A stretch of DNA of 64,000 nucleotides from Gammaproteobacteria bacterium Ga0074134 (GCA_001464965.1 LNEJ01000072.1:1-64000); one strand, 5' to 3'; positions 6,001 through 17,109 are shown, counted from the stretch's first letter. The notes: generated by a model not told the origin, from the letters alone. Program-made: numbers and translations.

Positions 6001-8967
6001 TTACCACTGCCCCGATGTCCCCCGTCCTTTCCCCTTCGCCCACCCCGGCGGCGCGACATTGGGTGCGGGGAGATCGGGGAGGGGCGGGGCGCCTGCCTTG
6101 TTTTCCTCCCAGGTTCCGCTCGCGCCATGCTCCGATCGCGGCGGGAGTCCCGCCCCCATCTTGCCCAATACTTGCTGCACCATCTGTTCCGGGTTGCCGA
6201 AAGGCGTATCCACATTGGGGATTATTCCCACCACTGCGGCCGCCGCGGCATCGCCGGGCAGCGAGCTGTGGTTGACCTTGGTCTCCGCGTCCCGCCGCAC
6301 CGCGCCCCCGCGCGCAGCTACCCCCGTCTCCACTGACTGAATGTGACCTTGCGCTTCGCCCTGCAGGGCCTGCGCCTTCGGGGTCACGCTATCGGCGGGC
6401 AGCGCGCCCGGCGTCAGTCCCGCCGCCTGTTGTTGCCCCTCCACCCTGTCGCGGTTTTCGCGGTGCTGCGCCATGACCTGTCCGGGGCTGAAGGCGGGAT
6501 CGGTAGACGCCGCCGCATGGAAATCGCCCGGCGCGCCGGGATCCACGCGTTGGATGCCGTTGCGGTACAGGGCCTCGTCGGCATGGTTGGCCACGTACCG
6601 GTTGGCCCAGCCCTGCACCTTGCCCGCACGCTCATGGCCGGTGAGCGCGTCCCATGCCTCGGCGTTGCCGCCGTGGCGCAAGTAGTCCTTCCAGAAGTCG
6701 CCGGCGAGGTTCGTGCTGGTCTGCGCCCCGGCGCTACGGGTTTCGGAGGCCGCCTGCTCGTAGGCGGCGCTCTTTTGCCGCTGCACGCTGCTTTCCTGCC
6801 GCCAGCCGTCCGCAATATCGAGGTTGGCGCGCACCCCGGCGAGCGCGTTGCGGCTGCCCGCGTCGGCGTGCTCGTAGGACTCGGTGGTAGCGCCCTTCTT
6901 CATCAAATCAAACTTCTCCTGCCAGTTGTTTTCCTTCATGTACTTGCTGGTATCATCCAGCGCCGTTTGTAGCTGTGCGTCGCTTTTGCCCTGAAATTGC
7001 CCGCTCGCCTTCAGTACACTGACCCCCCCTCCAGGCGTGCTTACTGAGGCAGCTCCAAGCAGCGTAGCCGACTGAGCCGACGACCACTTACGATCCTCGC
7101 CAAACTGATCCACGAACTTCGCCACCTGCCCCGCCCCTGTCCCGGTCGAACCCTCCGTCCCCGTCGAGGCGCCCGTGCTGTGCCTGCCGGACGCGGCGGC
7201 GGCCTTGTCATAAGCATAGTACTCGGCGACCGCCGCCGACATGGCGCGCGACGCGGACAGCGTGGCGCTCTGTGCCGCCGTGTCGGCGTGCTTCGAGGCC
7301 TGGCTCCAGGACGCGCCGAGGGCACTCTGCGCGGAGATGTTCGCGCCCAGGTTGGGGATGCTGGCCCCCACGTCGTACAGCGCTCCGCTGGCTCCGTTGC
7401 CGTAGGTGCTGACCGTCGCGCCGGTATTGGTCTGCACGGCCATCCCGCCGCTCTTCATCGACACGTTGGTGTCCATCTTGTGCCCCGCCCAGGTGTTGAC
7501 CGCGGCGTTGTCCATCTTGAAGTCGCCAAGGCTGATGTTGCCGCTGCCCACTTGGCTGCCCGCCTGCTGCGCGGCGCTCTGCGCGGGCTTGTTGAGTTCG
7601 CCCACCACGGCGGTGCCGGCCACGGCGCCGGCCTTGACCAGCATCCAGGCGATCATCGGGATGCTGACGGCGATGTAGCCGGCGGCGGCGACCATGTCGC
7701 TGTTGGTGGACAGCAATGAGGCGGCGGTCTCCAGCGCCAGGCCGTTGGCGGACCCGCCGCCCATCATGCTGGCCGTGCCGTTCTGGTACTGGCCGTACCA
7801 GGTCATCACGGAGTTGATGATGGCGTAGATGGGCGCCCACAGCTGCAGCCAGACCAGCACCTGCACGTAGGTGAGCAGGGCCTTGCCCACCATCGGCAGC
7901 AGCAGCGCCACGGCGACGATGGGAAATAACCCGTAGACCACCGCCTCCAGCACGTTGCGGAAGATCGGCAGCAGCTTGCCCATCATGTTCCCGCCCGCGC
8001 GGGCCATGACGCGCCAGGTGGACTCGGATTGCGCCTGGGCGATGTTGACGGCGGCGGCCGCAGCGTCCGAGGAGGCGGCGTAGTTGAGCAGCGCCTGGCG
8101 CGTGGCGTTGATCATGATCTGCTGCTTGATCAGGTCGGAGGCGGCGATGCTGGCGCCCGTCATGTAGCTGTAGGCGCCGGAGGCGGTGGCGAGGATCGCC
8201 GCTCTGGCGTCCGCCGATGTCTTGCGCGGCCACAGCGCCTTGCCCCAGAACGTGGCCGCATCGTTGATCTGGGTATTCCAGCGGGTGTTGATATCGGCCA
8301 TCGCGTCGCGGCAGGTCCACAGGCGGCTGCCCGTCGCGGGGTTAGGATGGGAGAGCTGCACGTAACGCAATGTGGACGCATTGGCGGAGAGCAGCCCCCA
8401 GATGTCGGGAGCCTTCATGAGGGCGTCCTCGCTGATGATGCCGCGCGTGATCAGCCAGAATCCGCACTGCTCCAGCCAGGCGTTCATGTCGTGGGCGAAG
8501 TCGGCGTCCGGCGCCTGCAGCCCGGCCCCGGCCTTGATCAGGCTGGAACCGAACAGCATGCCGTTCTGGGCGTATTTCTGGTCGCCGGGGATGCTGATGA
8601 AGGTCTCGTACATGCGCGTCAGCCCGTCGCCGACCGTGGAGGTGAGGTGCGCCAGGATGCCGATGCCCAGCGGCACGCTGTCGACCACCACCGGGCCGCT
8701 GGAGGGCGGCTCGATGCGGTCCACGATCGCCACGTCGACCTTGGGCACCAGCAGGATGAAGTAGACCATGGCGAAGCGCACGAAGTACATGAAGTCCGGC
8801 ATCTGGTACTTTTTACCCAGCATCTCCAGCGTGACCCACAGCAGGCCCACGGCGCCCGCGAGCCGGATCAGGGTGGTGAAGCTGTCCGACCCCATGAACA
8901 GCTTGAGCGAGGTGAAAAGCTGCGCGAGGTACGCGCCGCCGCCGTAGGTGTAGATCTCATAGGCCAT
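6001..8967 (-). CDS. traG: Conjugal transfer mating-pair stabilisation protein TraG
   Basis: A 988-aa inner-membrane protein. The TraG N-terminal domain (residues 1 to about 470) carries several membrane segments: one near 30-50, one near 63-76, and a cluster near 325-460 (VVYGLFPIVAVALLLPMVG, YIAVSIPMIAWMLVKAGAV). The long C-terminal part (470-988) is rich in Ala, Ser, Gly and Gln, as in F TraG, whose periplasmic tail helps stabilise mating pairs and contacts TraN. F TraG has 938 residues, so this is slightly longer and complete. It is the last gene of the minus-strand tra operon, directly downstream of traH and the PH-domain gene. Confidence 0.93.
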   Translation of the reverse strand: MAYEIYTYGGGAYLAQLFTSLKLFMGSDSFTTLIRLAGAVGLLWVTLEMLGKKYQMPDFMYFVRFAMVYFILLVPKVDVAIVDRIEPPSSGPVVVDSVPLGIGILAHLTSTVGDGLTRMYETFISIPGDQKYAQNGMLFGSSLIKAGAGLQAPDADFAHDMNAWLEQCGFWLITRGIISEDALMKAPDIWGLLSANASTLRYVQLSHPNPATGSRLWTCRDAMADINTRWNTQINDAATFWGKALWPRKTSADARAAILATASGAYSYMTGASIAASDLIKQQIMINATRQALLNYAASSDAAAAAVNIAQAQSESTWRVMARAGGNMMGKLLPIFRNVLEAVVYGLFPIVAVALLLPMVGKALLTYVQVLVWLQLWAPIYAIINSVMTWYGQYQNGTASMMGGGSANGLALETAASLLSTNSDMVAAAGYIAVSIPMIAWMLVKAGAVAGTAVVGELNKPAQSAAQQAGSQVGSGNISLGDFKMDNAAVNTWAGHKMDTNVSMKSGGMAVQTNTGATVSTYGNGASGALYDVGASIPNLGANISAQSALGASWSQASKHADTAAQSATLSASRAMSAAVAEYYAYDKAAAASGRHSTGASTGTEGSTGTGAGQVAKFVDQFGEDRKWSSAQSATLLGAASVSTPGGGVSVLKASGQFQGKSDAQLQTALDDTSKYMKENNWQEKFDLMKKGATTESYEHADAGSRNALAGVRANLDIADGWRQESSVQRQKSAAYEQAASETRSAGAQTSTNLAGDFWKDYLRHGGNAEAWDALTGHERAGKVQGWANRYVANHADEALYRNGIQRVDPGAPGDFHAAASTDPAFSPGQVMAQHRENRDRVEGQQQAAGLTPGALPADSVTPKAQALQGEAQGHIQSVETGVAARGGAVRRDAETKVNHSSLPGDAAAAAVVGIIPNVDTPFGNPEQMVQQVLGKMGAGLPPRSEHGASGTWEENKAGAPPLPDLPAPNVAPPGWAKGKGRGTSGQW

Positions 8968-9578: not shown

Positions 9579-11036
9579 TCACCGTGTATCCAGCATCTTG
9601 GCGAAGGCCAGGCGCTGTTGCATGGTGGGGCTGAAGCTGGCGGCCAGCTTGCGCTGCAGCAGCATGATCTTCTCGATCACCTCGGCCATGCCGCCAGCCT
9701 GATTGATGCGCATGTTGCGCTCGGACTGGGCCTCCTGTACCGCCGCGTTCATCTGGGCGGTCAGCGATTCGCGCCAGTCCTGCGATCCGGCATTGGAACG
9801 CTGCAGGGCGGCCCGGGCGATATCCACCGCCGATTTCATGTAGCTGTAGAGCATGTCGGCGACGATGGCCTCGCTGTAGGGCATCACGATCGCGCCCGCT
9901 AGGTCGCCGTTGATGTCGGCCGCCACCTGGATGAGCTGCGCCACCGGCAGCCCGGTGCGGGCGAGCAGCGCCTCCTGGCTGGGGGTCAGCGTGACCGTCG
10001 TGCTGCCGGTGTCCGTGGCGATCTTGGATACTACGGCGGCCAGGTCTTGTTCCACCCGGTGTCTCATGCTGCCCAGTTCCGCATCTTCATGATCGAGGTC
10101 CATGCACTCCGTCTCGCTGTCGAGGCACTTGTAGATCTTCTCCTTGACACCGGTCCTGGCGCTGAGCAGGGTGCGGAAGCTGACGATCTGCGGCCAGGGG
10201 TAGGGCTCCGGCGCGCCCCCCGTGGCCGCCGGCTTGGGCAGTACGATAGTGCCGGTGATCGACATCAGCATCCGGGCGAATTGCTTGTCGGCCTTGAGAT
10301 AGGCGTCATCCATCATGCCCTGCCACACCACGTTGCCAGTGATCGAGGCGGCGACCTTCTGGTGTTCGGCGGCGCCGAGTCCGCCCGTCAGCAGCCCGTT
10401 GGCTCCTTCCTTGATGGTAGTGTTCGCGAAGTCCTGATCCTGACACTTGATGCGGGCGTCGGCGGCATCACTGGCCTTGCCGCTGCTGTTCGCCATACGT
10501 TCGCACAGCGCCTGTTGCCCGCCAGTGACCAGGTCTTTCCCCGCATTGACCAGATTGATGCCGGCCTGGCAGGTGTTGATGCTCTGGTTGTTGATGGCGG
10601 CGGCATAGGTGTTCATCTGGTCTATCACGCCGCCGCATTTCGGGCAGATCGTGTCCAGAGCGAGCTTGAAGGCGTAACCGAGCGCGGAGCTGCCGATGTT
10701 CTTGAGCATGGTGATCAGTTGGGTGGCGTTGATGAAGCTGAAGCCGCCCGCGTACAGGTCGATGCCGCCGCAGCCGGCGCGGATGCTCGGGGCCTGCACG
10801 CTCGCCAGATTGAAGTTGCGGATCGGGGCGCGCGCCGAGAAGCCGCCGCCGCTGAAATAATTGGCCGACTGGCCCTGGTAGAGGGCCGCGCCGGAGAAGC
10901 TCGATCCGCCGCCGACGCTGGCGTAGAAGCTGTCCATGTCGGAGGCGACGTCGGCGGCCGCGGGCTGGATCAACAGGGTCATCGCCGTCACCGCGGCGGC
11001 GGTCTTTTTGAGTGTGTTCTTCATTTTCATCGTCAT
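9579..11036 (-). CDS. traH: Conjugative pilus assembly protein TraH
   Basis: A 485-aa periplasmic protein needed in F-like systems for pilus assembly and mating-pair stability. It has a signal peptide (KNTLKKTAAAVTAMTLLIQPAAA) and then typical TraH blocks: GGSSFSGAALYQGQSANYFSGG, the cysteine-containing AGCGGIDLYAGGFSF, and CPKCGGVIDQMN. The C-terminal third is helical with heptad character. The ATG at 11036 is preferred to the one at 11045 because GGAGG ends exactly at the latter and 9 bases before the former. Its many cysteines fit with the DsbC encoded in the same operon. Confidence 0.95.
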   Translation of the reverse strand: MTMKMKNTLKKTAAAVTAMTLLIQPAAADVASDMDSFYASVGGGSSFSGAALYQGQSANYFSGGGFSARAPIRNFNLASVQAPSIRAGCGGIDLYAGGFSFINATQLITMLKNIGSSALGYAFKLALDTICPKCGGVIDQMNTYAAAINNQSINTCQAGINLVNAGKDLVTGGQQALCERMANSSGKASDAADARIKCQDQDFANTTIKEGANGLLTGGLGAAEHQKVAASITGNVVWQGMMDDAYLKADKQFARMLMSITGTIVLPKPAATGGAPEPYPWPQIVSFRTLLSARTGVKEKIYKCLDSETECMDLDHEDAELGSMRHRVEQDLAAVVSKIATDTGSTTVTLTPSQEALLARTGLPVAQLIQVAADINGDLAGAIVMPYSEAIVADMLYSYMKSAVDIARAALQRSNAGSQDWRESLTAQMNAAVQEAQSERNMRINQAGGMAEVIEKIMLLQRKLAASFSPTMQQRLAFAKMLDTR

Positions 11037-11054
11037 CTCATTCATCCTCCAGAA

Positions 11055-11853
11055 TCAAAACTCGCCCGGCCTGGCCTGGGTCAGGGCGTGGATCCGCTCC
11101 AGCAGTTCTGATTCGCTCTGGATGCCGAAGGCCACCGGCGTGATGGTGCGGGTGCGGGGGTTGGCCATGAAGATCGCCGGCGTCACGCCCACGCCGATCT
11201 GCCGCGCCAGGCCGTTGTCGGGCACGGCGTCCGGAAACTCCGGCAGGCCGCTGCCGTCGAGACTCACCGCCTTCACGTTGAGGCCGTAGGTGCGCGCGAA
11301 ACGCAGCAGGATCGGCGCCTGCGCGGCGCAGTAGGGGCAGGAGGCCTGATAGAAGAAGAACAGCCCCTCGGTCCGGCCCAGGGCGCGCACGGCGTCGGCC
11401 TGGGCGGCGCGCTTCAGGTCGCGCTCCAGCGCCACGCCCACGGTAGTGACGGGGTGTGTCACGGTGGTATCGAGATCGGGATTGCCCCACAGCACCCGCC
11501 GCCAGGTGTCGGCGAACAGCCCGGAACGCTCCATCGCCTCCATCTGGAGAGCCATGTAGCGCTTCACCTTCCCCTCGTCCTTGGGGTGCATCACCGCCAG
11601 CGCGCGCGCATCCTCCAGCCGTTTCTGGTAGGACTGCAATTCGGCCTGGGGATCGGCGGGCGCGCCCGCCGGGGGGCGGCGCCGGGTCGCAGTACCAGAA
11701 CCACCCTTCGGCGCGTTGCGTGAAGTAGCGGCCCTCGGCGTCTGCCGGACCGCAGTTCGCCCCCGTTGGGATGGCGGCGTGCGCCGCGATTGCGGTCAGG
11801 CCGAAGGCGAGGGCGGCCAGACATTTGAGCGTGGTGTGCATGGCATTCCTCAT
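11055..11853 (-). pseudogene. traF: traF, thioredoxin-like pilus assembly protein, frameshifted
   Basis: TraF is a periplasmic thioredoxin-fold protein of F-type systems. Here the signal peptide and first 65 residues (MRNAMHTTLKCLAALAFG up to FWYCDPAPPP) are in one frame, and the rest (AELQSYQKRLEDARAL to the end, with the redox-like CPYC motif at SCPYCAAQ) is in another. The break is a six-G run at 11671-11676; with five Gs the two parts join into one 265-aa protein with the expected sequence across the join. The start ATG overlaps the traN stop (TAATG at 11851-11855), so translation is coupled. It is either a real inactivating or phase-variable +1 indel or a homopolymer error. The downstream frame could restart only after loss of the signal peptide. 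Confidence 0.85.
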
Positions 11854-12875
11854 TATTTTACGACGCTGGGCGCGAGGCTCGGGTCATACGGCGCCGCGCC
11901 GCTGTCCGGTATGCTGTGCGTTCCCGAGCTGTAGTAATTGGTGATGCGGTTGCCGACCGCCGTGCCCATCTGGGCCGGATCGAGTTCCTTGGCCTTGAGC
12001 ATGGCGTCGGTGTAAAACTCGGACAGATCCATCTTGCTGAAGTCCAGACCCTGTATTTCGGCCGGCGTCAGGCCTCGGCAGTCGGGGCTTTCGGGCGATC
12101 CCCAGCCCAGGCCCAGCTGTGGCCGGCCCTGTTCCTGGAGGAGGCGGGCGAGCTTGGAGTTGAAGCAGCAGTATGTCTCCTTTTTCGATTCGCAGAACCC
12201 CAGGACGTTTTTGCTGGAGCAGTAAGATCCCACCAAGTGACAAGTCTTGGCCTGCCGGTTCATGCCCAGCTGCTGTTCTTCGGCGGTGCATTTCGTCAGG
12301 TCGAGATCCATGCCCCATCCCGAGTCGTTACAGCAATTCTTGAACCCCAGGATCGGGGTTTTGCTGCACCGCTCTTCCTTGCCCTTGAAGATCTGCATCA
12401 GCGTGGCGTCGAAATCCTTGCCGGCCTCGAACATGATGTTCAATGACGTGACCGCCAGGCCAAAGTCCGGATTGGGGGCGGACTTGGCGTCGAAACACTT
12501 GCCGTCCATGCAGAAGGCGTTGCTGCCGCAGTCGACCACCGTGGAGCTGACGCCTGGGGAGGTCTGGCACTGGTATTTCTGCTCCCACAGCGAACACTGG
12601 CCATCGATGAGTTTCTGGATGCAGGCCGAGCCGATTTGGGAGCAGCCAGCGCTGAGCAACGGTGCACAATCATTGGTCGTGCCCGTCAGGCATTCGTACT
12701 GTGCGTCGTATTTCCAGCAGGCGCGGGTGACCGGCTCGCCGCTGATGGTCTTGGTTGCCGGGCCATCCACGCACCCTTCCGACGTTTTGAAGCAGGTTGC
12801 TCCGGCGGCGATGCCGGGCGCCGCCAGCAGCGGTAATAAAAGGACCGCCGCCAGTCTCACATGGACGGATGTCAT
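11853..12875 (-). CDS. traN: C-terminal half of TraN, with its own signal peptide
   Basis: A 340-aa cysteine-rich secreted protein matching the second half of TraN, the outer-membrane adhesin that stabilises mating pairs. Its core has the TraN pattern of paired cysteines: CVDGPATKTISGEPVTRACW, YECL, CAPLLSAGCSQIGSAC, CSLWEQKYQC, and later GFKNCCNDSGWGM and CCFNSKLARLLQEQGRPQLGLGWG. The ATG at 12875 starts a signal peptide (SVHVRLAAVLLLPLLAAPGIAAGA). The frame is also open upstream without a stop to 13547, so a fusion with the preceding gene is formally possible. The first half of TraN is at 13849-15246, and three small genes lie between the halves. Confidence 0.8.
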   Translation of the reverse strand: MTSVHVRLAAVLLLPLLAAPGIAAGATCFKTSEGCVDGPATKTISGEPVTRACWKYDAQYECLTGTTNDCAPLLSAGCSQIGSACIQKLIDGQCSLWEQKYQCQTSPGVSSTVVDCGSNAFCMDGKCFDAKSAPNPDFGLAVTSLNIMFEAGKDFDATLMQIFKGKEERCSKTPILGFKNCCNDSGWGMDLDLTKCTAEEQQLGMNRQAKTCHLVGSYCSSKNVLGFCESKKETYCCFNSKLARLLQEQGRPQLGLGWGSPESPDCRGLTPAEIQGLDFSKMDLSEFYTDAMLKAKELDPAQMGTAVGNRITNYYSSGTHSIPDSGAAPYDPSLAPSVVK

Positions 12876-12935
12876 GCATGCGTGCTTTCGTGATAAATTC
12901 GCAACAATCGCTGGCTGAAGCAGAGGAGATCGCTC

Positions 12936-13169
12936 ATGGCGCTGGCGCCTTGCAGAGAATGTAAAACCAGGGTAAGCACGTCGGCGATGGAATGCCCGGT
13001 ATGCAGTGCCACGAACCCGGCCGACAGGATGAGCGTGCAGGGGAAAAGACGCCTCCGGACGATGATCAGGGTGCTTTTCAGTCTGGGGGTGGCCATCGCC
13101 GCCGTGCTCTATTTCTGGTACGGCATTCTGTCTGGCCTGCACCAGGGCATCCTGAACCAGGCTCCGTAG
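12936..13169 (+). CDS. Zinc-ribbon membrane protein, antisense inside the tra operon
   Basis: A 77-aa protein with an N-terminal zinc ribbon (CRECKTRVSTSAMECPVC: two CxxC pairs, residues 6-23), a basic linker, and one membrane segment (VLFSLGVAIAAVLYFWYGIL, about 47-66). AGAGGAG ends 8 bases before the ATG, so a plus-strand start is credible. It is the only plus-strand gene within the 21-kb minus-strand operon. It lies exactly between the traN C-terminal half and the gene before it, overlapping that gene's 3' end in antisense. It may be a later insertion or a regulator read against the operon. Confidence 0.7.
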   Translation: MALAPCRECKTRVSTSAMECPVCSATNPADRMSVQGKRRLRTMIRVLFSLGVAIAAVLYFWYGILSGLHQGILNQAP

Positions 13170-13547
13170 CGTGGCGAAATCCGCGTCGAGATCGGACCTT
13201 GACCATGAGAGCAGTGTGTAGAGCGAACGGGGACGGTGCGCCATCACCGGCAGCGCGAGGGAAAAGCACAGATCGTCACGCAGGTTGAACATGCCCCGGA
13301 TGTGCCAGGGGCAGCGGAGCCGCGGCCGCTCGCGGCAGAGGTCGCCGTAAACCAGCCGGTTGAAGACGCTAACGAAGGCGAGCGTCGCCTGAAAATACAC
13401 ATAGGGCGCTTTTACGCCGCGCCAGGTGAGATGCCCCTCGCAGGACGCGAGGGTGCGGCATACGCCCTCCGCGTTCAGCGCCTCCACCAGCGGCCGGATG
13501 CGTGGCTCGATGGGGCAGTCCCCGAGGGTACCGGCGTCCATGATCAT
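13110..13547 (-). CDS. Unknown protein between the traN halves, without its own stop
   Basis: The first 120 or so residues look like a real protein, with conserved-looking blocks CPIEPRIRPLVEALNAEGV, TLASCEGHLTWRG and YVYFQATLAFVSVFNRLVYGDL, and then CPWHIRGMFNLRDDLCFSL. It starts at ATG 13547, in an ATGA overlap with the upstream ribbon-helix-helix-like gene, so the two are coupled. The end is not defined: the frame has no stop until the traN C-terminal stop at 11853, and past about codon 145 the translation is merely the antisense of the zinc-ribbon gene. The end at 13110 is therefore a rough limit. Loss of a stop by an indel is likely. I recognise no family. Confidence 0.5.
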
Positions 13548-13834
13548 TGCGCCTGCTCCAATCCGGCATCCTGGCCGTCAAGGCGCGCCGCCGGTTCGGA
13601 CACATGGCGCTCCCGTTCGATCCGATCCAGCTCGCCGTGCGCGCGCCGGATCGCGTCCTCCAGTGCCTCGCGGGCAATGCCGGCGGCATTGAAGACGAGG
13701 GAGGGCGCCACCGTGGACAGGCGCGCCTTGACGGCCAGGATGCGGTCATGGAGGTTGTCGGGGATGTTGATCTTGACGCCCTTTCTGGCGCCTTTGCGCG
13801 CGATGGCGCGCTGCTGGAACACGGAATCTCGCAT
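13544..13834 (-). CDS. Small DNA-binding-like protein (RHH-type?) between the traN halves
   Basis: A 96-aa protein with a basic N-terminus (IARKGARKGVKINIPDNLHDRILAVKARL), a strand and helix start like ribbon-helix-helix or TraM/TraY-type proteins, and a long helix (AREALEDAIRRAHGELDRIERER). The ATG at 13834 is chosen because GAGGAG lies 6 bases upstream; the longer ATG at 13852 overlaps the traN end. If it binds DNA it could control the operon or relaxosome, but this is inference from composition. Confidence 0.5.
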   Translation of the reverse strand: MRDSVFQQRAIARKGARKGVKINIPDNLHDRILAVKARLSTVAPSLVFNAAGIAREALEDAIRRAHGELDRIERERHVSEPAARLDGQDAGLEQAQ

Positions 13835-13848
13835 GGGGGTCTCCTCTG

Positions 13849-15246
13849 TCATTTTGCCTGCGCCTCCAGCCCAGCGCACTGGTTGTCCCAGGCGTCGGTT
13901 TCGGTCACTTTTTTCACAAGCCTGGCGCGGGCGAAGTTGAGAGTGTTGGCGTCTCCGGTGACGGTGTAGCCGGTGGGGGCGTTCGTGATCTGCAGCCGTT
14001 GACAGCCGACGGGCGTGTAGGTGGCAAAAAAGCCGCTGCCCGATTTCGTGTAGGCGCTAATATCGCCCGCCGCGCAACCAAAGCCGGACGTCGGCTGCGC
14101 GGCAAAACATCCGCCAGGAGGCGGCAGGGGGGCATAGGTGGGGGCGCCGCCACCAGAGCTTGCAGTCATGATGTATAACGACTCCGCCGCCGTCGTCCCT
14201 GAAGGACACGCGGGGTAGGTGTAATCGAACTGCCCCTGGTCCATAATCGTGTAGCTGCAGCTGTCGCCGGTACATCCCCCGGCGTAATAGACATGCCTGG
14301 TCGATGATCCAAACCCTATGAAGTCGATATAGCTGTATAGCGGCTGTGGAATGGCGGTCGGCGCCTCCGGCACCCAAAAGGCAGGGGCGGTCATCAACGA
14401 AAGATTGGGCGCGAGGCCGGCGCCGCAGCCGGAGGCGCCCAATTGTCCCTCGTCGATCGGATCGCGCCGGTGCACGATCTTCTGGCGTCCGGCGCTGCTG
14501 TAATCGCACACCGCCGAGGCGTGGTAGCCGTGCCAGTCGTCGGCGCCGTCGTGTTTGTCGCAGGACTGACCCGCGGCGGAGGTGGCGATGACGGTGCCGG
14601 AGGCGCAACTCGGAACCCAGTCGACCTTGACGGCGACGTTGAGGATCTTCTGGCAGGCCTGCGGCGCCATCGTCACCGATTCGTGGCAGATTTTTTCTTC
14701 GTACACCGGAGGCGTGGAGGAGGTGATGCTGCTGCAGCCGCTGTAGGTGCCGGTGATGGCGCCGGCCACAGCCTCGGGATCGTTCTCGATGGTCTGCGAC
14801 TTGGTCATCATCGGATCGGTGGCCGGATCAATCGTGAACACCGGCCGTGTTCCGAAGGTGGTGGTGACGTGACTGCCGGCCTCGCTGGCGCCCAGGGCGC
14901 TCGTCGGGTCGAGCGTTCCGCCGCCGCCCAGCGCGGCCTCGGGCGGCTTGTCCAGCGCGCCCGTCGCCCCTTGCGCGGCGTTCATGTCCATGACATCGCC
15001 GATGCCGTAGGTCTTGCCGCCGAACGTGACGCTGCCTCCGCCTGTCTTGGCGGCGGCGCCCGGGTCGACGGCGCCGGTGTAGCTCTTGCCCGCCGTGAAC
15101 GCATCCCCCGTCGTCATCGGCGGGCCGGCGGTCACTGCCAGCGGCAGGGACAGCAGCGCGGCGACCGCCATGGATGGCGGAAGTGCTGGAAGTGCAGGAG
15201 CAACTTTCCAGCCGCCCATCCACCCCGGCAATCTAGCGGCGGTCAT
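13849..15246 (-). CDS. traN: N-terminal half of TraN
   Basis: A 465-aa secreted protein. A weak signal region (MAVAALLSLPLAVTAG, about residues 33-48) precedes TraN-typical blocks: GDAFTAGKSYTGAVD, FTIDPATDPMMTKSQTIENDP, YSGCSSITSS, YEEKICHESVTMAPQACQKILNVAVKVDW, and at the end TETDAWDNQCAGLE. In whole TraN proteins the W-x-N-x-C segment is followed directly by the cysteine block that here starts the separate gene at 12875. So traN is split at a domain boundary, and the order on the DNA is correct. The ATG at 15246 follows GGAGG and overlaps the trbC stop by 14 bases. Confidence 0.85.
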   Translation of the reverse strand: MTAARLPGWMGGWKVAPALPALPPSMAVAALLSLPLAVTAGPPMTTGDAFTAGKSYTGAVDPGAAAKTGGGSVTFGGKTYGIGDVMDMNAAQGATGALDKPPEAALGGGGTLDPTSALGASEAGSHVTTTFGTRPVFTIDPATDPMMTKSQTIENDPEAVAGAITGTYSGCSSITSSTPPVYEEKICHESVTMAPQACQKILNVAVKVDWVPSCASGTVIATSAAGQSCDKHDGADDWHGYHASAVCDYSSAGRQKIVHRRDPIDEGQLGASGCGAGLAPNLSLMTAPAFWVPEAPTAIPQPLYSYIDFIGFGSSTRHVYYAGGCTGDSCSYTIMDQGQFDYTYPACPSGTTAAESLYIMTASSGGGAPTYAPLPPPGGCFAAQPTSGFGCAAGDISAYTKSGSGFFATYTPVGCQRLQITNAPTGYTVTGDANTLNFARARLVKKVTETDAWDNQCAGLEAQAK

Positions 15247-16012
15247 AAAATCCTCCGCGGCGCAAGCGCGCCAGATACGGCTCCACCGTGGCCCTGGCCT
15301 CCGGTGCGGCGCGGCCGATCGCTTCCAGCGCGTAATCCAGCGAGACATCCCCGCCGATCGCCCAATGCGGCGGCGTGGGGGTGTTGCAGGCGCTGTTTTC
15401 ACAGCGCGGCAGGGTCTTGCCCGGCAGCAGCACCAGCGCGGGTATCTGCCTGATATCGAACTTCTGGAACAGTGTCGGGTCGATCAGGAAGGATACGTTG
15501 CGGTTCTTCAGCAGCTTGCCCATCTGCTCGGCGGTGCCGTTGAGGTCCCCGGGCTTGATCAGGCCGCGCACCACCAGGGCGGCGCCCGCCTGCGCGGCCT
15601 GATCGATGGCGCGGTCCAGCGACGCCGCCGGCATGGAGAGGCTGACGAACAGCAGCAGGCCCTGCTGTTCGTTGCGTCTGCCCTGCGCCGCCTCGGGATC
15701 GAAGGCGTGCTTGTTCTGCCGATACTTCTCCACCAGAGCGCCGATGTCGATGCCCGCGCCCGGCGTGATGTTGATCGGGGTATTGGCGCCGCCCTTTTGC
15801 GCCTCACGCAGAGCGCGTTCGGTGTCCTGCCGGTTCTTGCCGCGGACGGCATCCAGTTGCTCCGGGGAAGGCAGGGGATGCTCCGCCCGCGCCTTTTCGA
15901 CCTCGGCCTGGGTGGGCGTGCGCTCGGCCCACGCCGGAGCAAGGGACGCGGCAGCGATCAGCAGCACCGCCGCGGATACGGCCCGCCTATGTCCCGCGAT
16001 GAGCAATTTCAC
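15233..16012 (-). CDS. trbC: Pilus assembly protein TrbC
   Basis: A 259-aa periplasmic protein of F-type systems, needed for pilus assembly. It begins with a signal peptide (KLLIAGHRRAVSAAVLLIAAASLAPAWA), followed by a charged region, and then the TrbC thioredoxin-like core: GLLLFVSLSMPAASLDRAID, ALVVRGLIKPGDLNGTAEQMG, IDPTLFQKFDIRQIPALVLL. The GTG at 16012 is preferred: AAAAAAGGAGG lies 6 bases upstream. It lies 26 bp downstream of traU. The whole reading frame extends far upstream in the shadow of traU, which is not coding. Confidence 0.9.
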   Translation of the reverse strand: MKLLIAGHRRAVSAAVLLIAAASLAPAWAERTPTQAEVEKARAEHPLPSPEQLDAVRGKNRQDTERALREAQKGGANTPINITPGAGIDIGALVEKYRQNKHAFDPEAAQGRRNEQQGLLLFVSLSMPAASLDRAIDQAAQAGAALVVRGLIKPGDLNGTAEQMGKLLKNRNVSFLIDPTLFQKFDIRQIPALVLLPGKTLPRCENSACNTPTPPHWAIGGDVSLDYALEAIGRAAPEARATVEPYLARLRRGGFYDRR

Positions 16013-16038
16013 CGGCAGCCTCCTTTTTTGTTGATGGA

Positions 16039-17109
16039 TTAAAACGCACAGCAGTTCCTCTTGCGCCAGATGAGATAGGCGAAATCCTCGCCCTTGACCG
16101 GGAACTCCTTGCCGATCCCCCACAGCGCCTCGGTGCGCCCCAGGGGCTGGCAGCAGAACGGCATCAGCGGTCCCGCGCCGAGGGTCTCCGGCACCGGATA
16201 GGTCAGCTGGGTCTTGTACTGGCCCTTGGTGAGGATCGGCATCGGGTATTTGCCGCACAGCGCACCTGCGCCAACGGACCCCCACAGCAGACCCTGGCGG
16301 TGCAGTTTGTAGAGCATGCGCTGCACCATCAGGGCGGAGGAGGCTACGCCGCCGCTGGTCACGGCGCTGCTCTGGATGTTGCCCGTCAGCGGGTACATGC
16401 CACCCTGGCAGCCCGCGCACCAGAACAGCGGGGTCAGCGGGAATCCCACGGAAGCCGCCACGCAGTCGGCGGCGCACGCCATCTGAGCGATGGGATTGGC
16501 GAAGATGACCGCCTCGGGATTGAGGATGAAGGCCAGCTCGTCGTCGGCCCACAGCGGATCCAGCTCGGTGACATACCCCACGTCGAAGGCGGGCGTGGGG
16601 TCCATGCAGGCCGTTTTGGTGACCATGTCGATCAGCGCCGCCACCGGGTAGATGTAGTAGTGCACCTGGTAGAAGGCGCTGGAGGTCTTCTTGTCCGCGG
16701 CGGCGACGGCCTTGATCGTTCCGCCGGGCGCGAACACCCCCGGCGCCAGCTTGACCCCGCCTATGGAGATGAAACAGTAAGGTTCGCGCGTCACCTCGAC
16801 GATCCGCACCGGCTCCCAGAACGAGATGGTGACACCGGGCCGGACGAAAACCGGCGGCGGGGCGGGACAGAAGCATACCGGCGCCCCCGCCGAACCCTCC
16901 GCGAAGTCCTCTGCGCCGAACGAGGCCACCGGCACGCCGCCCACGGTGATGGGGAACACGCACTTCCAGCAGATGTCGGTGATGGGATTGATCATCCTGC
17001 CCGAACACAGGCCGACGGCGGCGGCCGTCAGGGGCAGGGCCAGCAGGCATGCCGCCAGCAGTCCCAGCACAGGGCGCGGCACGCCAGGGGTGTTACGGTA
17101 GCATTTCAT
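16039..17109 (-). CDS. traU: Conjugative transfer protein TraU
   Basis: A 356-aa periplasmic protein important for DNA transfer in F-like systems. It has a signal peptide and many cysteines, with the family blocks CSGRMINPITDICWKCVFPI, WEPVRIVEVTREPYCF, the YYIYPVAALIDM region, NPIAQMACAADCVA, FWCAGCQGGMYPLTG and, at the end, RKRNCCAF. F TraU has 330 residues, so this is complete. Its start overlaps the traW stop by 17 bp. The cysteine content fits the need for the DsbC encoded upstream. Confidence 0.96.
   Translation of the reverse strand: MKCYRNTPGVPRPVLGLLAACLLALPLTAAAVGLCSGRMINPITDICWKCVFPITVGGVPVASFGAEDFAEGSAGAPVCFCPAPPPVFVRPGVTISFWEPVRIVEVTREPYCFISIGGVKLAPGVFAPGGTIKAVAAADKKTSSAFYQVHYYIYPVAALIDMVTKTACMDPTPAFDVGYVTELDPLWADDELAFILNPEAVIFANPIAQMACAADCVAASVGFPLTPLFWCAGCQGGMYPLTGNIQSSAVTSGGVASSALMVQRMLYKLHRQGLLWGSVGAGALCGKYPMPILTKGQYKTQLTYPVPETLGAGPLMPFCCQPLGRTEALWGIGKEFPVKGEDFAYLIWRKRNCCAF

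Follow-up and report, generated by a model that had tools for sequence, protein, structure and literature searches.

A stretch of 64,000 nucleotides from Gammaproteobacteria bacterium Ga0074134 (GCA_001464965.1 LNEJ01000072.1:1-64000; hereafter the window) carries an F-type mating-pair operon in which the place of traN is occupied by two separate genes, and this pair probably encodes a two-subunit TraN, with the recognition tip on an N-subunit and the membrane base formed by a C-subunit. TraN is the surface protein by which many conjugative plasmids grip the recipient cell. F-type TraN is a single polypeptide of about 550-1070 aa, whereas the window encodes an N-terminal half of 465 aa (13849..15246) and a C-terminal half of 340 aa (11853..12875), both on the minus strand, with trbC on one side of the pair and traF on the other, as is usual for traN. 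Both open reading frames had been recognized as the two halves of TraN in an earlier examination of the DNA by itself (the sequence-only reading), and the analyses described here bear this out. The two-part form is a variant of TraN and not a new system, and it is common and largely unlabelled across Proteobacteria.

The N-half starts with a hydrophobic segment (leader or signal peptide), followed by an N-terminal base region and a variable tip at about residues 215-450, and its C-terminus reads ...DAWDNQCAGLEAQAK, which contains the terminal block W453-D-N-Q-C457. This block had been described as W-x-N-x-C in the sequence-only reading; the block is present, but the motif is W-x-x-x-C. The N-half has 14 cysteines, including five conserved ones that are common to one-piece TraN, and four of these five (C171, C187, C198 and C214) are located in the base region. 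Residues 113-211 align to positions 71-166 of the one-piece F-type TraN model TIGR02750 (E 3e-8); the score lies under the curated cut-off for full-length proteins, which is unsurprising for half a protein. No Pfam family was matched by the N-half, and a search of the plasmid collection with the window N-half gave no match; other N-halves do have relatives there.

The C-half has 22 cysteines and consists of a clear signal peptide, MTSVHVRLAAVLLLPLLAAPGIAAGA, a cysteine block beginning TCFKTSEGC and a conserved C-terminal base domain. It covers the whole of PF06986 (F_T4SS_TraN, 1-240/240, E 7e-77) as well as positions 291-559 of TIGR02750, and its cysteines are conserved with one-piece TraN in the alignment. 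The full-length PF06986 match identifies the C-half as the true second half of TraN and rules out its assignment to another cysteine-rich family. The presence of a signal peptide on each half, which had also been proposed, is supported by the hydrophobic N-half segment and the clear C-half leader. Neither half matched a solved structure by sequence.

The position of the break is precise. In the junction alignment, it coincides with a short linker, about five residues long, of one-piece TraN (for example, WESTCGALEQQAQAGMCVQQSQTCLEPGETRLIDG across the junction), and neither folding unit is therefore cut. Intact proteins read ...WESTCGALEQQAQAGMCVQQSQTC..., whereas in split ones ...WDNSQCAPLEQRAQ is followed by a stop, and PDCQKTGTVC appears only after a signal peptide. 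The N-half of a two-part element usually ends about 10 residues past W-x-x-x-C (the W is absent in G101 and L097), and the C-half resumes, after its signal peptide, just ahead of the next cysteine. A hydrophobic leader was found at the start of all 13 C-halves examined. One-piece and two-part forms alike retain the five N-part cysteines as well as those of the C-part. The proposal that the split lies at a domain boundary thus holds, and other genomes and plasmids show this split with no insert.

The two-part arrangement has been detected in diverse elements. With the window N-half as query, TraN loci were found in 10 other genomes of the class, four of them two-part (G131, G073, G101 and G318; the C-half of G073 extends over the contig end) and six one-piece. 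A PF06986 survey of 369 genomes of the class (25 positives) and 399 of the phylum (21 positives) added two-part loci in G465, G690 and G609 and two in G624 (Sulfuricystis multivorans plasmids). Both halves with the same break are present in six sampled genomes besides the window (G131, G073, G101, G318, G465 and G690), and both halves also occur in a named isolate, Stenoxybacter acetivorans DSM 19021; one more two-part locus was found among viral contigs (IMG/VR). Complete plasmids with the pair include Pseudomonas aeruginosa pHN39-SIM, P. putida p716811-VIM, P. monteilii pJ20133-VIM, Burkholderia vietnamiensis pBVIE01, B. ubonensis pMSMB2035, B. glumae p76s2p, Methylibium RPME01, Acidovorax pACP3.3 (3 bp between the halves), Sulfuricystis pSTJ1 and Azospira pAZI09, and the gene order is shared by Halomonas KO116, whose TraN is divergent. 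Further, a plasmid-collection search with an N-half of plasmid pSTY returned 133 records, 127 of which are predicted to be conjugative and 97 of which are from Burkholderia. In annotated records, the usual label is 'hypothetical protein' for the N-half and 'conjugal transfer protein TraN' for the C-half; in pBVIE01 both are hypothetical.

The halves are not always adjacent, and the N-half is not always single. The Cupriavidus campinensis plasmid NZ_CP043439.1 has its sole C-half at 274046-275698 and its sole N-half at 157938-159119, 115 kb apart, and no TraN beyond this unlinked pair was found on it. A small secreted gene that elsewhere stands before the N-half precedes the C-half on this plasmid, and is 61% identical to that of pBVIE01. 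In G609, the halves are separated by 61 kb. These unlinked pairs indicate that the halves can act in trans. In addition, pSTY (NC_022739.1, L121 5648-8651) carries two tandem full N-halves ahead of one C-half, as do plasmids of P. aeruginosa AR19438 and Pseudomonas CIP-10, and in pJ20133-VIM and Stenotrophomonas KC1 the reading frame of the first N-half is broken. The two pSTY N-halves are 82-95% identical over residues 41-160 (base) and only 10-30% identical over residues 241-360. Because the published tip of one-piece TraN sets recipient specificity, we infer that the duplicated N-halves may equip a single base with two tips.

Purifying selection on both halves is strong in the relatives where it is measurable. 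Between pSTY and pHN39-SIM, the ratio of non-synonymous to synonymous substitution rates (dN/dS) was 0.05 (N-half) and 0.02 (C-half), values that are rough given the high dS, and for the unlinked Cupriavidus pair it was 0.07 and 0.06, respectively. pJ20133-VIM and p716811-VIM have been conjugated into PAO1 (PMC8905914), and each has one PF06986 frame, which is the C-half. The dN/dS values and these conjugations say that two-part TraN is maintained and compatible with transfer. The central claim of the sequence-only reading, a TraN divided into two secreted parts, is strengthened by plasmids that encode only two-part TraN and have been transferred in the laboratory.

In the model that we propose, each subunit would use its own signal peptide for export by the Sec pathway and would then fold and be oxidised in the periplasm. 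The N-subunit would comprise the N-terminal base part and the entire variable tip that contacts the recipient, and the C-subunit would provide the cysteine-rich base in the donor outer membrane. The subunits would associate without a peptide link into a working mating-pair stabilisation protein, and, as separate units, would let the recognition half move, duplicate or be swapped while one base stays. Physical association of the halves and their outer-membrane location are predicted, and recipient recognition by the N-subunit is presumed from work on the one-piece tip. An obligatory disulphide between the halves was considered, as the conserved cysteines of the N-half are odd in number (five), but the totals of 14 and 22 show no need for one. 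More tentatively, TraN of this type may be heteromeric in a broader sense, with a constant outer-membrane base subunit that accepts interchangeable recognition subunits with genes of their own; plasmids of the pSTY type would keep two of these, and the N-subunit present would set the recipient range.

The halves in the window are separated by 973 bp (12876-13848). The sequence-only reading had described about 970 bp with a ribbon-helix-helix (RHH)-like gene, an 'unknown' gene and an antisense zinc-ribbon gene; the length, the open reading frames and the antisense gene were confirmed, but the RHH label has no family support. The RHH-like gene (13544..13852, minus strand), so called by eye only, had no Pfam or NCBIfam match, no significant match in PHROGs and no plasmid match. 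It overlaps the N-half stop by ATGA, and the 'unknown' gene, an accessory gene for a 'SCEGH' protein (about 13086/13130..13547, minus strand), overlaps the RHH-like stop in the same way, so that both genes look co-translated with the N-half. The 'SCEGH' frame is open from 13547 to 11853 (564 aa), without a stop up to and through the C-half. G+C content at third codon positions (GC3) in this frame falls from about 0.8-0.9 to 0.38-0.42 at about 13070-12890 and rises again from about 12875, which indicates that 'SCEGH' coding ends at about 13130-13190, and we take the C-half to be a distinct gene that has a start of its own. The zinc-ribbon gene lies between the halves on the plus strand (12936..13169) and encodes 77 aa with a hydrophobic segment; its PHROG matches are weak (E 4e-5), and its GC3 is coding-like. 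Elsewhere, the gap contains nothing, a 237-aa secreted protein (pSTJ1) or an antisense helix-turn-helix (HTH) and RelE-like pair (G073). As inserts vary or are absent, the gap tolerates cargo, and the split cannot be ascribed to the insert; the three genes are accessory to the window element and no part of the split.

Several points weigh against the two-subunit reading, some of them specific to the window copy. The insert with its antisense gene divides the halves, the traF frame switches at a C-run near 11671-11676, and the closest C-domain relative is a one-piece TraN gene with 51% identity. At that distance it serves neither to estimate selection on the window pair nor as a strict case of what would have refuted the sequence-only reading, an intact traN in close relatives. 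AlphaFold2 models of each half, made with few sequences, were unusable, with mean predicted local distance difference test (pLDDT) values of 29 and 50. The reported conjugations used wild donors, so help from another element is possible. The split in the window could be damage, in which traN was disrupted by incoming accessory genes and is now decaying along with traF, and the lack of a clean end to the 'SCEGH' gene and the intact state of the nearest relatives by path in the C-domain tree agree with this. We nevertheless consider damage unlikely, as the break falls in the same linker in insert-free relatives (G131, G465, L117 and Acidovorax pACP3.3), a simple insertion does not explain the leader and separate start of the C-half, and coding-like GC3 and conserved cysteines are kept in both window halves. 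The traF break, located at a C-run, may be a sequencing error or a real break. On balance, our judgement leans towards a functional window pair.

An artefact of assembly is highly improbable. The source is a draft genome of 80 contigs, but four-base start/stop overlaps chain the N-half, the RHH-like gene and the 'SCEGH' gene, and the occurrence of the same break in complete circular plasmids effectively rules this explanation out for the split. A different objection accepts both genes and questions their partnership: the C-half alone may perform the job of TraN, with the N-half being either a secreted adhesin in its own right or a remnant that never associates with the C-half. Even cysteine totals would permit each window half its own disulphides, the halves can be up to 115 kb apart, and some single TraN genes are without any tip (G298 and G333). 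Set against this, the N-half has preserved the five cysteines and the base region known from one-piece TraN, adjoins the C-half in most elements read and is under strong purifying selection; both parts form one chain in one-piece relatives, whose tip is reported to be essential for conjugation (PMC13104618). This makes an independent N-half quite unlikely, and a two-subunit TraN remains the preferred reading.

The evolutionary origin of the split is a separate matter. In the unrooted C-domain tree, most beta-proteobacterial and Pseudomonas two-part forms make up one clade (100/98), and the window, G131, G690 and G101 fall outside it. A single clade of two-part forms was rejected by the TraU-TraH-TraF backbone tree (approximately unbiased (AU) test, p 5e-5, unrooted), in which well-supported branches force at least three state changes; the C-domain tree spoke against it less firmly (p 0.007, or 0.085 without two long rows). 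One origin of the split is thus unsupported by either tree, and repeated fission and repeated fusion both fit the unrooted trees. A two-gene ancestor, whose halves were joined repeatedly at one site to give one-piece TraN, is conceivable but doubtful. Fusion needs only the loss of a stop and a leader, while every fission must gain a signal peptide, and the rejection of one two-part clade is compatible with this scenario. However, one-piece TraN is widespread, including in alphaproteobacterial and IncF plasmids, and with gene exchange among elements the gene trees may depart from the history of the split.

Compared with one-piece F-type TraN (TIGR02750), the two-part form shares the order of segments, the position between trbC and traF, the conserved cysteines and the PF06986 C-terminal domain; it differs in having two polypeptides with their own signal peptides, in halves that are sometimes unlinked and in an N-half that is sometimes doubled. 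In one-piece TraN, the tip is the determinant of recipient specificity and the base is the anchor (PMC13104618, PMC10516633). The published size classes TraN-S/M/L span 550-1070 aa and do not include a two-part form (PMC13104618). TraN-V of Acinetobacter baumannii plasmids similarly has one base with two different tips (PMC13104618), but both tips are in a single chain, whereas pSTY has two separate N-subunits and one C-subunit. Another gene of an F-type type IV secretion system that is reported to be split is traK of the Rickettsiales amplified genetic elements (RAGE) (PMC10732058); it is a different gene, without a link to the exchange of a recognition module. Two NCBIfam models for 'conjugal transfer mating pair stabilization protein TraN', NF009015 (420 aa) and NF009019 (550 aa), fit stand-alone C-halves: residues 75-572 of the Stenoxybacter C-half align to 21-535 of NF009019, and residues 4-185 of the L080 C-half to 12-194 of NF009015. 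Both models label the C-half as complete TraN, with the partner N-half unmentioned. The sequence-only reading had called a two-part TraN a new arrangement; no description was found in the open literature (subscription papers and preprints were outside the search), but the form is not confined to this element, and annotations have long given the name TraN to the C-half by itself.

The range of cells that an F-type element can enter depends in part on TraN. If a two-subunit TraN is true of many elements, annotation misses the recognising half, which is recorded as a 'hypothetical protein' near or far from traN, and TraN-type surveys and host-range predictions would miss such N-halves. A separable tip would also offer a direct handle on the cooperation of tip and base, which is hard to test in one-piece TraN.

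The remaining genes of the operon were identified by Pfam and NCBIfam profile matches, in the order traU-trbC-[traN]-traF-traH-traG on the minus strand. traU (16039..17109; PF06834, E 2e-116) is followed by trbC (15233..16021; PF09673, E 7e-26), directly upstream of the N-half. traF (11038..11853), directly downstream of the C-half, is interrupted as assembled; its TraF domain (PF13728) is in frame over 11055-11639 and matches from profile position 42. traH (9579..11045; PF06122, E 2e-85) and traG (6001..8967; PF07916, E 2e-88) complete the set. An Rfam scan of 11000-16000 gave no match.

Further observations concern the insert and related loci. A 34-nt inverted repeat, 88% complementary (13556-13589 and 13720-13753), lies inside the RHH-like gene. 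Relatives of the 'SCEGH' gene occur on 965 plasmids, mostly conjugative, and on a Vibrio plasmid one stands directly after a TrbI/VirB10 gene. The HTH and RelE-like pair of G073 (L085 3504-4104, minus strand), antisense and exactly between the halves, is likely a toxin-antitoxin module. G231 (L087 1881-5721) is possibly two-part, with a 723-aa cysteine-containing secreted protein that matched no NCBIfam TraN model, a lipoprotein-like gene and a stand-alone TraN C-half. G298 (L081 5003-5896) and G333 (L083 3612-4757) each have a single short TraN without the tip or the first cysteine block. In L017, L104, L096, L095 and L005, which include one-piece and two-part forms, two to four repeats of the TraN cysteine block (about 90-105 residues) are present. 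Finally, L105 (2887-3303), L106 (2806-3225) and L127 (4542-4976) encode a conserved secreted protein (about 140 aa, without a Pfam family) ahead of the N-half, or ahead of the C-half if the N-half lies elsewhere; this protein is a possible third partner.

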